A stretch of DNA of 42,468 bases from an uncultured Fibrobacter sp. (GTDB taxonomy: Bacteria; Fibrobacterota; Fibrobacteria; Fibrobacterales; Fibrobacteraceae). Shown one piece after another: positions 19,739 through 23,773 of the stretch. Numbering within the stretch: the stretch's first letter is position 1; the number at the start of each line of letters is the position of its first letter. The stretch spans positions 1-42,468 of the forward strand of contig NZ_CAMZCS010000028.1 of assembly GCF_947305105.1 (NCBI RefSeq), given 5' to 3'. A program made the position numbers and the translations under genes. The notes under the pieces are model-generated. The model saw only the letters and a program-made list of their open reading frames with translations. It was not told the origin of the DNA and ran no database searches.

Positions 19739-19847
19739 TTTTTTCCTTCTTAGTTATCAAAGAATATATAAAAATCAGCCAAGATGCGCTAGATTTTCCC
19801 AAAAAAAGCCCCATTCCAAACGTTTATTATCAATATTTGAGCCCCCT

Positions 19848-20181
19848 CGGGATATATCTCAGCCTGGTAGAGCGTCTGCTTTGGGAGCAGAATGTCGTCA
19901 GTTCGACAAAATACGCGGTGAACGAAGGCAACCGAAAAAAATTGCTTTGATTAAAAAAATTTGAGCGAGACCAAGTGCAGGCAGGAACGAAAAGAGGCGA
20001 ATACTGGAGGTATTTGCCTCTTTGAGTGACGAACCGGCACGCCGGTCGCAGCCAAATTTTTGAAAATGAATTTTTTGAGGTTGCCTAAAGTGAATAAAAG
20101 CGTATTTTGCGCGGCATCTGTAAGGATGACGCCCGAAGGGCAAAATGGAGCAAAGCGACATTTTGCAATCTGGCTACCCAA
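19848..20181 (+). pseudogene. Interrupted copy of tRNA-Pro(TGG)
   Basis: Bases 19848-19906 copy the first 59 bases of the intact tRNA-Pro at 20264, identical from the D arm through the anticodon (TTTGGGA loop) to GTTCGA in the T loop. The tRNA sequence resumes at 20168 with ATCTGGCTACCC. The 261 bases between are foreign. The acceptor stem has decayed (CGGGATA against TACCCAA), so the copy cannot be functional. About 50 bases upstream of both copies are also related (for example CCATTCC at the same distance), so the original duplication included the leader. Confidence 0.85.
19907..20167. repeat. Palindromic element inserted in the T arm of the tRNA-Pro copy
   Basis: The main part, 19907-20109, is one long imperfect inverted repeat. 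CAAAATACGC (19907) pairs with GCGTATTTTG (20100), and GGCAACC (19927) pairs with GGTTGCC (20079). The apical stem AAAGAGGCGAATAC (19991-20004) pairs with 20010-20023 around a TGGAG loop, with one G-T wobble. A tail (20110-20167) has the hairpin GCCC-GAA-GGGC and the inverted pair GCAAAATG/CATTTTGC (20140, 20159). It contains no credible gene. It resembles a miniature inverted-repeat element or a structured RNA. Confidence 0.82.
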
Positions 20182-20247
20182 ATTATAAAAACTTCCTAGA
20201 GAAACTAGAATTTCCAAGAAAAAGTTCCATTCCGGGCGTTAATTTGC

Positions 20248-20253: not shown

Positions 20254-20263
20254 TGAACCACCT

Positions 20264-20337
20264 CGGGGTGTAGCTCAGCCTGGTAGAGCGTCTGCTTTGG
20301 GAGCAGAATGTCGTCAGTTCGAATCTGGCTACCCCGA
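20264..20337 (+). tRNA. tRNA-Pro (anticodon TGG)
   Basis: This is a complete 74-nt cloverleaf: acceptor CGGGGTG/TACCCCG, D arm GCTC/GAGC, anticodon stem TCTGC/GCAGA with loop TTTGGGA, and T loop TTCGAAT. The discriminator is A; CCA is not encoded. A strong terminator begins within its last bases. Confidence 0.97.
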
Positions 20338-20376
20338 TACAATAAATGCACCCCTCGCGGGTGCATTTATTGTATC
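20338..20376. terminator. Terminator after tRNA-Pro
   Basis: An 18-bp perfect stem runs from 20336 (inside the tRNA acceptor end) to 20353 and from 20359 to 20376, with loop CTCGC. The right arm contains TTTATT. Because the stem shares the last bases of the tRNA, folding of the terminator and of the tRNA acceptor stem may compete. Confidence 0.85.
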
Positions 20377-20379
20377 TCA

Positions 20380-20434
20380 GGTAGATAGTGAGAACTGACG
20401 AAGTCAGTTCAACATTTTGCTATCTGGCTACCCC
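20380..20434. repeat. tRNA-Pro 3'-end-derived hairpin
   Basis: GTCAGTTC and ATCTGGCTACCCC, both from the tRNA-Pro T arm and acceptor end, occur here separated by AACATTTTGCT. The inner hairpin is GAACTGAC-GAA-GTCAGTTC (8 perfect pairs). GGTAGATAG and CTATCTGGCTACC form an outer stem. The segment ACATTTTGC-ATCTGGCTACCC is almost identical to the right junction of the palindromic element at 20158-20179. Confidence 0.75.
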
Positions 20435-20455
20435 ATTTACCACCATATCCAAAAA

Positions 20456-20485
20456 GAACGACGAAGTCAGTTCGACAAAATTCGC
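20456..20485. repeat. Second T-arm-derived hairpin with left element end
   Basis: GAAC-GAC-GAA-GTC-A-GTTC folds as a bulged hairpin and is followed by GACAAAATTCGC. That matches the left junction of the palindromic element (GACAAAATACGC at 19905) at 11 of 12 positions. The rest of the gap, 20486-20657, is AT-rich and shows no other clear element. Confidence 0.65.
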
Positions 20486-20657: not shown

Positions 20658-21473
20658 ATGAAGCCGATAACCGAATATCAAGATTACCGAAAATACTTAT
20701 TGGACTACTTTGACTGGCGCAAAAGAACATCCGCATTCTCGTGGCGCGAATTTTCCAAACAGGCCGGGTTTGCATCGCCGTCGTACATCAAGCTCGTCTG
20801 CGACGGCAAGAGTTCCCTCAGCCGTGTGGGCGTGCCTCTGGTTGCGGCAGCCATGAACCTTTGCGACTACGAATGCGACTATTTCAAGTACATGGTCGAC
20901 TTCACGAACGCGAAAGATGACGACAAGAAAAAAGAAGCCTTCCGCAAAATGGAAGAAATCGCGAAGGAGCAGCATGCTCGCGTTCTCAATGCAGATGCGT
21001 TCGACTATTACGAATCGGCAGTGAACTCCATCGTCCGTGAATTGGCTCCGCTGATGCCGGGAGCGCTTCCGGGCGACATCGCCAAAAAAATCAAGCATAA
21101 CTTTACGGCTCAGGAAGTCCGCGACGCATTGAAACTCTTGGTCAAGCTCAACATCCTCACGACCCAGGGCAAGGATGCCTACAAGCAGACCGACAAGATC
21201 ATCACCGGTTCCAGCGAATCGCTCATGCTGGCGCTGCGTTCCATGAACCGCCAGATGATCGACCTCGCCCGCGAGGCCATCGATAAAGTCAAACCGGCAG
21301 AGCGCAACATCTCGGGCGTGACCGTGGGCGTCGATGCCAAGGCGTTGAAGCGCATATCGGACGAAGTAGACCGTTGCCGCAAAAAAGCCATCGCCATTGC
21401 TGGCGAATGCGACAACGCCGACCAAGTCTACCGCCTAAACTTGCAACTTTTCCCGCTGACAGAAAAAATATAA
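20658..21473 (+). CDS. TIGR02147-family (DUF4423-like) protein
   Basis: This 271-residue soluble protein belongs to the second large paralogous family described in F. succinogenes. The N-terminus I-T-E-Y-Q-D-Y-R-K-Y-L-L-D-Y-F, then F-S-W-R-E-F-S-K-Q-A-G-F-A-S-P-S-Y-I-K-L-V and the G-K-S-S-L-S segment are diagnostic. The first 70 residues read as a helix-turn-helix-like unit, so a transcriptional role is often supposed but not shown. The middle part is also winged-helix-like (L-L-V-K-L-N-I-L). A good GGAGGT precedes the start, and the next lipoprotein gene follows by 10 bases, so this protein may control or accompany that lipoprotein. Confidence 0.85.
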   Translation: MKPITEYQDYRKYLLDYFDWRKRTSAFSWREFSKQAGFASPSYIKLVCDGKSSLSRVGVPLVAAAMNLCDYECDYFKYMVDFTNAKDDDKKKEAFRKMEEIAKEQHARVLNADAFDYYESAVNSIVRELAPLMPGALPGDIAKKIKHNFTAQEVRDALKLLVKLNILTTQGKDAYKQTDKIITGSSESLMLALRSMNRQMIDLAREAIDKVKPAERNISGVTVGVDAKALKRISDEVDRCRKKAIAIAGECDNADQVYRLNLQLFPLTEKI

Positions 21474-21483
21474 GGAGGATCAC

Positions 21484-22341
21484 ATGAATTTCAAAAAACT
21501 TATTTCGATTTCTTTTGGTACATTGGGTATAATCGGCGCATTAAGCGCCTGTTCCAGCGACGACAACGTTGCGGGTGCCGACGAACAGCCCAACACCATG
21601 GCAACGCAATCGAGTTCTTCCCAGGAGCCCTCATCTGCAAGCCGCACAAATGACTTGTTGGCCAGTTTAAAGAAATTCAACAACAAGCCCGAGCCTGTCA
21701 CGATTTCTATTTCGGAAACAGGAAAAACCATCGAAGATACCGTCAACGCCCAAGCATCTTTTGATGCAGCCTACCAAGCAATTGTAGCGGACGATTCTAT
21801 CACATGGATTAACGTGGAAGAACATCAAGACGTGTGCAACTCGGACAGTTGTTACGCTCTTACAGCAATGCTGGACAGCGAAAAAATAGTGCATGGTCCC
21901 ATCGGTTTCGGGAGCAGTCCCATAAACAAACAAATCGTCTGCTTAAACAACAAAAAGTTGTTGTACACTATAGGATTCGGAGATGGCTACATAGAAAAAA
22001 CCTTACTAAAAGAACAAACCGACTACCCAAACGATTCCATCACCATGGATCAATTTAAAGATGAATGTAGCGAAGAAAACGGAGAATTCTATTCTGCCGT
22101 AAGCAAGGCAAAAGGTCGACCGATAGAAATCACCGAGGAAGGGACCGTTTTTGCTCCTGACGATATTGATTCCACAGGAACCTGCAGAATTGAGTTTGTA
22201 AAACACCACTGTGACCCGGAAACAGGAATCTGCGAAACCGAAGAAATCCCGGCAGACACAACCTTTGGATACAGAGATCCCTATTGGGAAAAACATGTCA
22301 AACATATTTTTGACAATTGCGTATCCGAATTAGAATCCTAG
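21484..22341 (+). CDS. Lipoprotein in operon with TIGR02147 gene
   Basis: This is a 285-residue lipoprotein with lipobox L-S-A-C (Cys at about 23), a short Ser-rich linker and a C-terminal domain of about 230 residues. That domain holds seven or more cysteines in pairs such as C-N-S-D-S-C and C-D-P-E-T-G-I-C, so disulphide bonds are likely. No known family is recognised. AAGGAGG lies 6 bases before the start, and the upstream TIGR02147 stop is 10 bases away. The codons are richer in A and T than those of the housekeeping genes, suggesting fast divergence or a different origin. Confidence 0.8.
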   Translation: MNFKKLISISFGTLGIIGALSACSSDDNVAGADEQPNTMATQSSSSQEPSSASRTNDLLASLKKFNNKPEPVTISISETGKTIEDTVNAQASFDAAYQAIVADDSITWINVEEHQDVCNSDSCYALTAMLDSEKIVHGPIGFGSSPINKQIVCLNNKKLLYTIGFGDGYIEKTLLKEQTDYPNDSITMDQFKDECSEENGEFYSAVSKAKGRPIEITEEGTVFAPDDIDSTGTCRIEFVKHHCDPETGICETEEIPADTTFGYRDPYWEKHVKHIFDNCVSELES

Positions 22342-22462: not shown

Positions 22463-23773
22463 ATGAGAAAACTTTGTCTTCTTTGGTTAGCTGCATTTCT
22501 GTTGTGGTCCTGCGGTGACAGCGAAAGTACAACTAGTGCAACAAACATCATCGACATTGATAAACCCCATGTAACAAAATCTTCGTCAAGTGAAGAAGAA
22601 TCCTCATCAAGTGAAATTCAGAGTTCATCCAGTTCTGAACCCGATGAGGATGAATCATGCAGTTCTAGCACAGAAGAAAATGAAGAATCTTCGTCTATTG
22701 ACCAGGAGAGTTCTTCTAGTTCTAAAAAAGCAAGATCAAGTTCTTCCAAGTCTAAATCAAAGTCTTCAAGTTCTAGCAATTCAAAAACAAAATCGTCCAG
22801 TTCAAGCAACTCTATAACTAGTTCTTCTAGTGTAGCGTCCAGCAATCCCGCGCAAACATCTTCTTCATCAATATGCATAACAGAAGTTTCCCCCATTCAA
22901 ATCCTGCCACTTACGGCCAAACCCAATGCAAATAAATCTGAATTCACCTTTACCGGCGGAGCCGTCATGAGCGAAACCGAAACGTGTTATGAACACGAGA
23001 CTGAGGCCGAGCTGTTTTTTACAAATGTTCGTCTAGAACTTGTCCGTGTAAACGAACATGGCCAGAACGAAGTAAGTCCAATTAAACTCCAATATACGCC
23101 GCCAACATTGCCTGCGACAGTAATTAATCTTGCTGAAATGGGAGTAAAAATAAGCGATTCGGCAAAAACCCAATGCGGAAATTTCAAGTTGTTCGTTGAT
23201 TTCACGGCGACGGACGACCCCAATAATCCTGAGAGGTTTCTCGGCTGGGATTCCATAGAATTCGTTCGTGAGCCCATATACTGTGAGGCGGAACCGAAAT
23301 CATCCTCCAGCGCTGCTATAGACTCTGTCGTGCGAAAAGTTGAAATTAGGCAATTTAACGGTCTAATGTCCACTTCGGAAACTAGAGGATATTCGTTCAA
23401 AGAAGATGCCGAGGTCCCTATAGAGCGAGCCCAAATTCAAGTGAAACAAGGGCGAGACGGAGGACTAATGCTCTATGGCGTTAATGGTCACAAAGTCACC
23501 ATGTACGACAATTTCAGAGACAGAACTACCTACAGTGATGATTGGTATAGTGGCGACCTACCCCCCTCTCCCGTCCACACGACCGATTTCAAATTTACAG
23601 AAGCTAATCTCACAGACTCAACTTATTTCGATGTGGACGCATTCTGGATAGTCATTGGCCCTGCCTTCAACAAAGAAACCGCAGAGGATTTTTACACCAT
23701 TACACTGAAAACAATGGAAAGAGCAAACGAAGAAGGTGTCCGTCCGTTAAAAATTATCTACTACAAGAAATAG
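22463..23773 (+). CDS. Lipoprotein with long Ser/Glu/Lys linker
   Basis: The 436-residue product has lipobox L-W-S-C (Cys at about 17). A linker of about 105 residues follows, made almost wholly of Ser runs broken by Glu and then by Lys (K-S-S-S-S-S-N-S-K types), giving an acidic and then a basic half. The remaining 300 residues form beta-rich domains with four or five cysteines. No known family is recognised. An AAGAGGG lies 9 bases before the start. The codon use is AT-rich, like the gene before it. It is probably displayed at the cell surface, with the linker as a spacer. Confidence 0.8.
   Translation: MRKLCLLWLAAFLLWSCGDSESTTSATNIIDIDKPHVTKSSSSEEESSSSEIQSSSSSEPDEDESCSSSTEENEESSSIDQESSSSSKKARSSSSKSKSKSSSSSNSKTKSSSSSNSITSSSSVASSNPAQTSSSSICITEVSPIQILPLTAKPNANKSEFTFTGGAVMSETETCYEHETEAELFFTNVRLELVRVNEHGQNEVSPIKLQYTPPTLPATVINLAEMGVKISDSAKTQCGNFKLFVDFTATDDPNNPERFLGWDSIEFVREPIYCEAEPKSSSSAAIDSVVRKVEIRQFNGLMSTSETRGYSFKEDAEVPIERAQIQVKQGRDGGLMLYGVNGHKVTMYDNFRDRTTYSDDWYSGDLPPSPVHTTDFKFTEANLTDSTYFDVDAFWIVIGPAFNKETAEDFYTITLKTMERANEEGVRPLKIIYYKK

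Follow-up and report, generated by a model that had tools for sequence, protein, structure and literature searches.

Candidate decayed units of a tRNA-linked palindromic repeat behind a tRNA-Pro gene of Fibrobacter

The tRNA-Pro locus and its fragments

The stretch of DNA analysed here (the window, 42,468 nucleotides of an uncultured Fibrobacter sp.) carries an intact tRNA-Pro(UGG) gene that is followed by a terminator palindrome and two fragments containing T-arm copies, and preceded by a duplicated, interrupted copy of the same tRNA (Table 1). Nothing in the window besides tRNAs matches Rfam at the curated cut-offs.

Table 1. Features around the tRNA-Pro(UGG) gene of the window
Feature	Position	Strand	Evidence
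5' part of duplicated, decayed tRNA-Pro(UGG), to T-loop position 58 (..GTCAGTTCGA)	19847..19906	+	direct repeat of the intact gene region (82%); copy interrupted likewise in G031
Cassette 5' piece (CAAAATACGC.., 5' arm of HII)	19907..19926	+	matches units of G008, G013, G018, G031
Nested MITE GGCAACC..GGTTGCC in HII apex, outside the family	19927..20089 (ends approximate)	.	tRNA-free copies elsewhere in the genus; missing in G031
Cassette 3' piece: remaining HII, HIII, CCCGAAGGG, HIV	20090..20167	+	53.7-bit match to the family model at 20051-20178
Closing part of the interrupted copy: 3' T-strand plus acceptor fragment ATCTGGCTACCC	20168..20179	+	direct reading, repeat finding
Intact tRNA-Pro(UGG)	20263..20338	+	ARAGORN; Rfam tRNA, 63.7 bits
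Terminator palindrome, perfect 18-bp arms	20336..20376	+	inverted repeat I5
Inverted T-strand GAACTGAC (end of decayed inverted T-arm), paired with 20403-20410 across GAA loop	20392..20399	+	direct reading
Unit 1: 5' T-strand, 11-nt cassette remnant, 3' T-strand/acceptor end; cassette minus 90 nt	20403..20434	+	alignment to full orthologous unit of G070
Unit 1 piece GTCAGTTC	20403-20410		direct reading
Unit 1 piece AACATTTTGCT	20411-20421		direct reading
Unit 1 piece ATCTGGCTACCCC	20422-20434		direct reading
Unit 2: GAAC-GAC-GAA hairpin, 5' T-strand GTCAGTTCGA, first 10 nt of cassette; 3' part lost	20456..20485	+	95% match to 19897-19916; truncated likewise in G070
Unit 2 piece GTCAGTTCGA	20466-20475		direct reading
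Unit 2 piece CAAAATTCGC	20476-20485		direct reading

The original prediction had placed T-arm copies, adjoining the right and left ends of an element, at 20403-20434 and 20466-20485, which direct reading confirms; the motifs it gave are right except for one A and one T too many. Both fragments also fold, as it had claimed, into hairpins with the T-arm sequence as one strand, the hairpin at 20392-20410 (GAACTGAC-GAA-GTCAGTTC) with perfect pairing and that at 20456-20473 (GAAC-GAC-GAA-GTCAGTTC) with one base bulged. Their proposed origin from the same element is upheld by repeat finding, in which 20412-20439 pairs with 20158-20185 (89%) and 20466-20485 with 19897-19916 (95%) of the upstream copy, and by the orthologous locus of genome G070. 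The latter holds a complete unit in the same place, to which unit 1 aligns on either side of a 90-nt gap, with deletion breakpoints at GACA..GACA microrepeats. Although 20403-20432 on its own matches the family covariance model weakly (13.3 bits, E 0.03), this orthologue settles the identity of unit 1 as a family member. The truncation of unit 2 is common to the window genome (G000) and G070 and predates the split between them. The fragments are neither clean excision scars nor minimal versions of the element, as had been suggested, unit 1 being a full unit with an internal deletion and unit 2 a truncated one. Both are best explained as decayed units of a tRNA-linked palindromic repeat specific to the Fibrobacteraceae.

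Beyond the array, a 271-aa open reading frame and a 285-aa lipoprotein-like one (window 20658-22341) precede the gene at 22463, whereas the orthologue of that gene in G018 (L050) lies immediately next to the array.

The upstream interrupted tRNA-Pro copy

The region upstream of the tRNA gene had been taken for one element spanning 19907-20167, which does not hold: its inner ~160 nt are an unrelated MITE that is missing from the G031 orthologue. In other genomes the 290-bp stretch 19897-20186 separates into two families, the inner part (query about 29-194) matching many sites without tRNAs (L021-L035, L038, L039, L043-L049) and the outer parts (query 1-31 and 192-283) matching solely beside tRNA-Pro. 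At the orthologous locus of G031 the tRNA-Pro copy is interrupted in the same way by the cassette but contains no MITE, so the MITE inserted into a cassette already residing in the T-loop of the duplicated copy. A single 260-bp element was rejected on these other-genome matches and the G031 orthologue, in favour of a cassette with a nested MITE. The inner part is an ordinary hairpin MITE, and the supposed upstream element is a tRNA-Pro pseudogene interrupted by the cassette in which this MITE is nested. The window array is dying, with one unit internally deleted, one truncated and one cassette invaded by a MITE; the array at Pro-CGG in this genome, by contrast, appears undamaged and has units at two contig ends. 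The ~160-bp hairpin MITE is dispersed in Fibrobacter genomes, and G000:C6:18881-18939 (L002) is a short piece related to it.

Several species have interrupted tRNA copies upstream of intact tRNAs, the cassette sitting directly in a copy that keeps its 5' half. In the copies of two species the anticodon loop has been replaced as well, and in the Ser copies it is altered. In L085 (about 1330-1510) and L146 (minus strand), the anticodon loop of the interrupted tRNA-Pro has given way to another structured insert (CGTGAGC..ACGCC..), and a conserved hairpin, GGTCCGTNAGGACC, follows the interrupted tRNA-Pro copy in L056, L085 and L146.

Anatomy of the repeat unit

Complete units are about 150-200 bp long, gene-free and without open reading frames of their own. 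Each consists, in order, of a terminator palindrome, an inverted T-arm (often with an inverted acceptor), a C-GNA-G loop, the 5' T-strand with TTCGA, the cassette, and (A)ATC with the 3' T-strand, the acceptor 3' strand and the discriminator, after which the next terminator begins. The cassette, of ~95-125 nt, contains the hairpins HII, HIII, CCC-GNA-GGG and HIV in this order; HII has an inner R-C-GNA-G-Y apex flanked by tandem G-A mismatches, and the only near-constant motif is CCC-GNA-GGG, the middle base of which varies. The cassette lies between T-loop positions 58 and 59 (TTCGA|ATC) without target duplication.

The sequences flanking the cassette copy the adjacent tRNA, at five tRNA types and in another genus: GTCAGTTCGA..ATCTGGC at Pro-UGG, GTGAGTTCGA..ATCTCGC at Pro-CGG, GAGGGTTCGA..ATCCCTC at Ser-CGA and GTGGGTCCGA..ATCCCGC in a sister genus (G158), the Gly flanks being less exact tRNA copies. 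An ATC..acceptor copy follows every unit, so that the intact tRNA and the displaced 3' fragment form a direct repeat. Empty units with an uninterrupted T-loop, looked for in the Pro types with a GAA loop, were not found in the 80 genomes.

Distribution and host tRNAs

The covariance model of the unit rests on a clean subset of sequences, RNAalifold having missed most helices on the first MAFFT alignment because of a one-base misalignment. It detects the unit in 74 of 80 Fibrobacter genomes, with 1-9 copies each, and within the phylum confines the family to the Fibrobacteraceae (Fibrobacter and five other genera). A single unit used as DNA query finds matches in 45 of the 80 Fibrobacter genomes; 29 of the 30 loci fetched from this search have tRNA-Pro UGG or CGG, and the remaining one begins at a contig end. 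The junction motifs were expected to recur beside tRNA genes across Fibrobacter, as they do: in the alignment of 132 units (A5), drawn from fetched loci that are a part of all listed matches, 124 lie near a same-strand tRNA gene and the other eight on loci cut by a contig end. The host tRNAs are Pro-UGG, Pro-CGG, Ser-CGA, Gly-GCC and Gly-CCC, with Arg-UCT as a sixth host of a divergent version that has a different cassette. A cassette-independent survey of all 51 tRNA matches in the well-assembled genome G081 found 3'-end copies at those five and at Arg-UCT.

Outside the family, a loose pattern scan of genome contigs returned mostly chance matches, and two pattern matches near tRNAs (L217 and L234) were rejected as they lack T-arm copies. 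Phage-borne cassettes were sought with two exact patterns, of which one hit no viral contig and the other hit two viral contigs that are unrelated and devoid of tRNAs. The repeat is apparently undescribed, searches of the open literature having returned no account of such arrays.

Arrays and cassettes as modules

The expectation that the site had been struck repeatedly is borne out. Downstream of the host tRNA genes, relatives carry single units or tandem arrays of two to at least six units (L050, L073, L128, L148; at least six in L128), and array makeup differs among species. True array lengths are underestimated because assembly contigs end within the tandem arrays, as at G000:C9 and C60 (L111, L110) and at G008:C8 and C12 (L157, L156). 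Cassettes look like insertable modules, since a T-loop may contain two unlike cassettes in direct succession between one 5' and one 3' T-strand: in L072, L103, L167 and L244 both are of the common architecture, whereas in L220 the first belongs to a second, different type and the next to the common one. A UGG-type cassette is also found within a CGG array (L073). Cassettes mostly group by tRNA locus, with 10 changes on a rough tree of few columns (minimum 3, shuffled 56), from which it follows that movement between tRNAs is rare. By these sequence comparisons, cassettes appear to behave as discrete modules that seldom move between tRNAs. The second cassette type (AGGCGAGCGTCGCG..ATGACCGAGCCGA) is common to L179 (Arg-UCT) and L220 (Pro-CGG, second unit) and is missed by the covariance model. 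In L128 (958-2100), hybrid terminator palindromes combine the left arm of one with the right arm of another, joined near the apex, which suggests template switching.

Pairing statistics and the level of folding

Among 125 distinct units, most stem positions show several or all four Watson-Crick pairs. In about 3,800 cassette pairs there are 36 G-T (1%) and 22 A-C pairs, compared with 73 G-T (8%) and no A-C among 956 pairs of 44 tRNAs of the same genus, and with 76 G-T (4%) and 21 A-C among 1,780 terminator pairs. Cassettes differ from tRNAs in G-T share (p 1e-26) and in the balance of G-T to A-C (p 1e-9), values that are too small given the kinship of the sequences; the contrast with terminators in this balance is weak (p 0.04, again too small for related sequences). 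GNA loops occupy 99 of 125 HII apices, 120 of 125 mini-hairpins and 60 of 64 T-strand hairpins. This is the loop type of exceptionally stable DNA minihairpins (PMC4686876). Because stems covary almost purely by Watson-Crick exchange and carry GNA triloops, folding is probably maintained at the level of DNA rather than RNA, either by selection or by template-switch repair of palindromes, which could also preserve Watson-Crick arms.

Proposed mechanism and alternatives

The best explanation overall, to which we assign a probability of about 0.5, is that the fragments are decayed tRNA-linked palindromic units whose cassettes entered the T-loop in single-stranded, folded form. Cassettes would be small non-autonomous elements that, as single-stranded DNA in its folded state, enter a copied tRNA 3' end at the T-loop and duplicate no target sequence; units would multiply or vanish through exchanges between the tRNA-derived repeats and the terminator palindromes, either by recombination or by template switching, and the functional tRNA would remain intact during gain and loss. 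Placement as a folded single strand is favoured by the lack of target duplication, the constant orientation, the fixed site, the stacking and the DNA-type folding. More tentatively, and with the odds against it, the cassettes may represent a new class of mobile DNA, in which gene-less hairpins of ~100 nt insert as single-stranded DNA into the T-loops of duplicated tRNA 3' ends and stack in an integron-like manner, flanked by local tRNA sequence, via some enzyme. A survey of Y1 transposases and tyrosine recombinases found no enzyme to explain the mobility. Y1 transposases occur in 27 of 80 genomes, are absent from the window genome and G081, which both bear the element, and are present in two genomes without it; REP elements driven by RAYT were rejected, since the distribution of Y1 transposases does not track the element. 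The window genome has two tyrosine recombinases, and none is linked to the arrays in the 11 genomes checked. No insertion in progress was caught among the loci compared.

Three other readings appear improbable, each to a similar degree. The units could be scars left by phages or integrative elements at tRNA 3' ends, with ATC..acceptor as att core and the hairpins as old attP arms. Such integration is a common source of tRNA fragments (PMC9897764), attB sites are known to lie in the 3' ends and T-loops of tRNA genes (Ms6, PMC1762012; Islander, PMC4383910), and the core is repeated at every unit end. This reading is unlikely, however, as no integrase is linked in the 11 genomes, the gene-free units of ~150-200 bp have the same covarying structure at five tRNAs and flanks that follow the tRNA of each species, and the 5' T-strand is also there with a split T-loop, which simple core duplication would not yield. 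It is likewise improbable that the units encode a structured non-coding or tRNA-like RNA processed from tRNA read-through transcripts, comparable to rtT of E. coli tyrT, as their conserved position behind tRNAs, their strong covariation and the location of interrupted tRNA copies behind a tRNA-like upstream region might suggest. A structured RNA would combine covariation with tolerated G-U pairs; here covariation is strong and the G-U tolerance is lacking, G-T pairs making up 1% as against 8% in tRNAs and 4% in terminators, with A-C almost as common as G-T. Moreover, a terminator precedes the downstream units, and in the window Rfam yields only the tRNAs.

The repeats might also be self-made quasi-palindromes, produced and corrected by replication template switching at tRNA and terminator hairpins with no insertion at all. 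The alternation of direct and inverted T-arm copies, the near-perfect arms (terminators included), the hybrid terminators joined near the hairpin apex in L128 and the lineages tied to loci all fit such a process, which nevertheless seems a poor candidate for the whole since it leaves unexplained the same cassette architecture at five different tRNAs, the exact back-to-back joins of different cassette families (L220, L244) and the UGG-type cassette in the CGG array of L073.

A bacterial family appears to carry, at a few tRNA genes, a structured DNA repeat that combines RNA-grade covariation with DNA base-pair statistics. It offers a natural system for testing the upkeep of single-stranded DNA folding in chromosomes, for studying how tRNA genes stay intact as elements accumulate behind them and for searching for the enzyme that recognises DNA hairpins shaped like a T-arm. 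A further lesson is that a tRNA 3'-end fragment need not be a phage or island scar and that such arrays break assemblies.

Relation to known systems

In kind, the repeat comes nearest to non-autonomous repeats that are short and palindromic, and its arrays are laid out like the E. coli tyrT repeats; the target and modular build match no family among those compared. The 178-bp tyrT repeat begins with 19 bp of one tRNA and gives an RNA, rtT. Both systems have tandem repeats right behind a tRNA gene, each with a copy of the 3' end of that tRNA, but the Fibrobacter copy is split in the T-loop, several tRNA genes are involved, folding looks DNA-based and Rfam has no match in the window; the pair statistics argue against a processed RNA product as in rtT. 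Integron cassettes, whose attC core sites are GTTRRRY and RYYYAAC, are likewise hairpin DNA modules stacked at one fixed site in one orientation, a likeness that extends to the double cassettes seen here. In contrast, no integron integrase is seen, the arrays of the 11 genomes checked having no tyrosine recombinase nearby, there is no cassette gene, and the junction GTTCGAC, or its equivalent, misfits GTTRRRY.

Phages and islands that integrate at tRNAs (Ms6, PMC1762012; Islander, PMC4383910) share the target gene class and leave tRNA 3'-end copies, and the attB of Ms6 lies in a tRNA T-loop (PMC1762012), whereas the Fibrobacter units are ~0.2 kb, integrase-free, split at 58|59 and in tandem with covarying hairpins. 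REP, REPIN and RAYT systems (PMC2817692, PMC3116915, PMC3733652) are similar in being short non-autonomous palindromic repeats with DNA hairpins and suspected single-strand handling. Compared with them, the Fibrobacter repeat is low-copy, restricted to tRNA 3' ends and uncorrelated with Y1 transposases, and its units lack the constant GTAG or CGTC tag that stands beside the REP palindrome. Runs of short hairpin repeats (GAGCGAAGCGAACGACTCAACCAG, CCCGAAGGGC) with no link to a tRNA lie at about 720-1350 of L293 (Saprospiraceae), where similar mini-hairpin motifs occur in an unrelated lineage.
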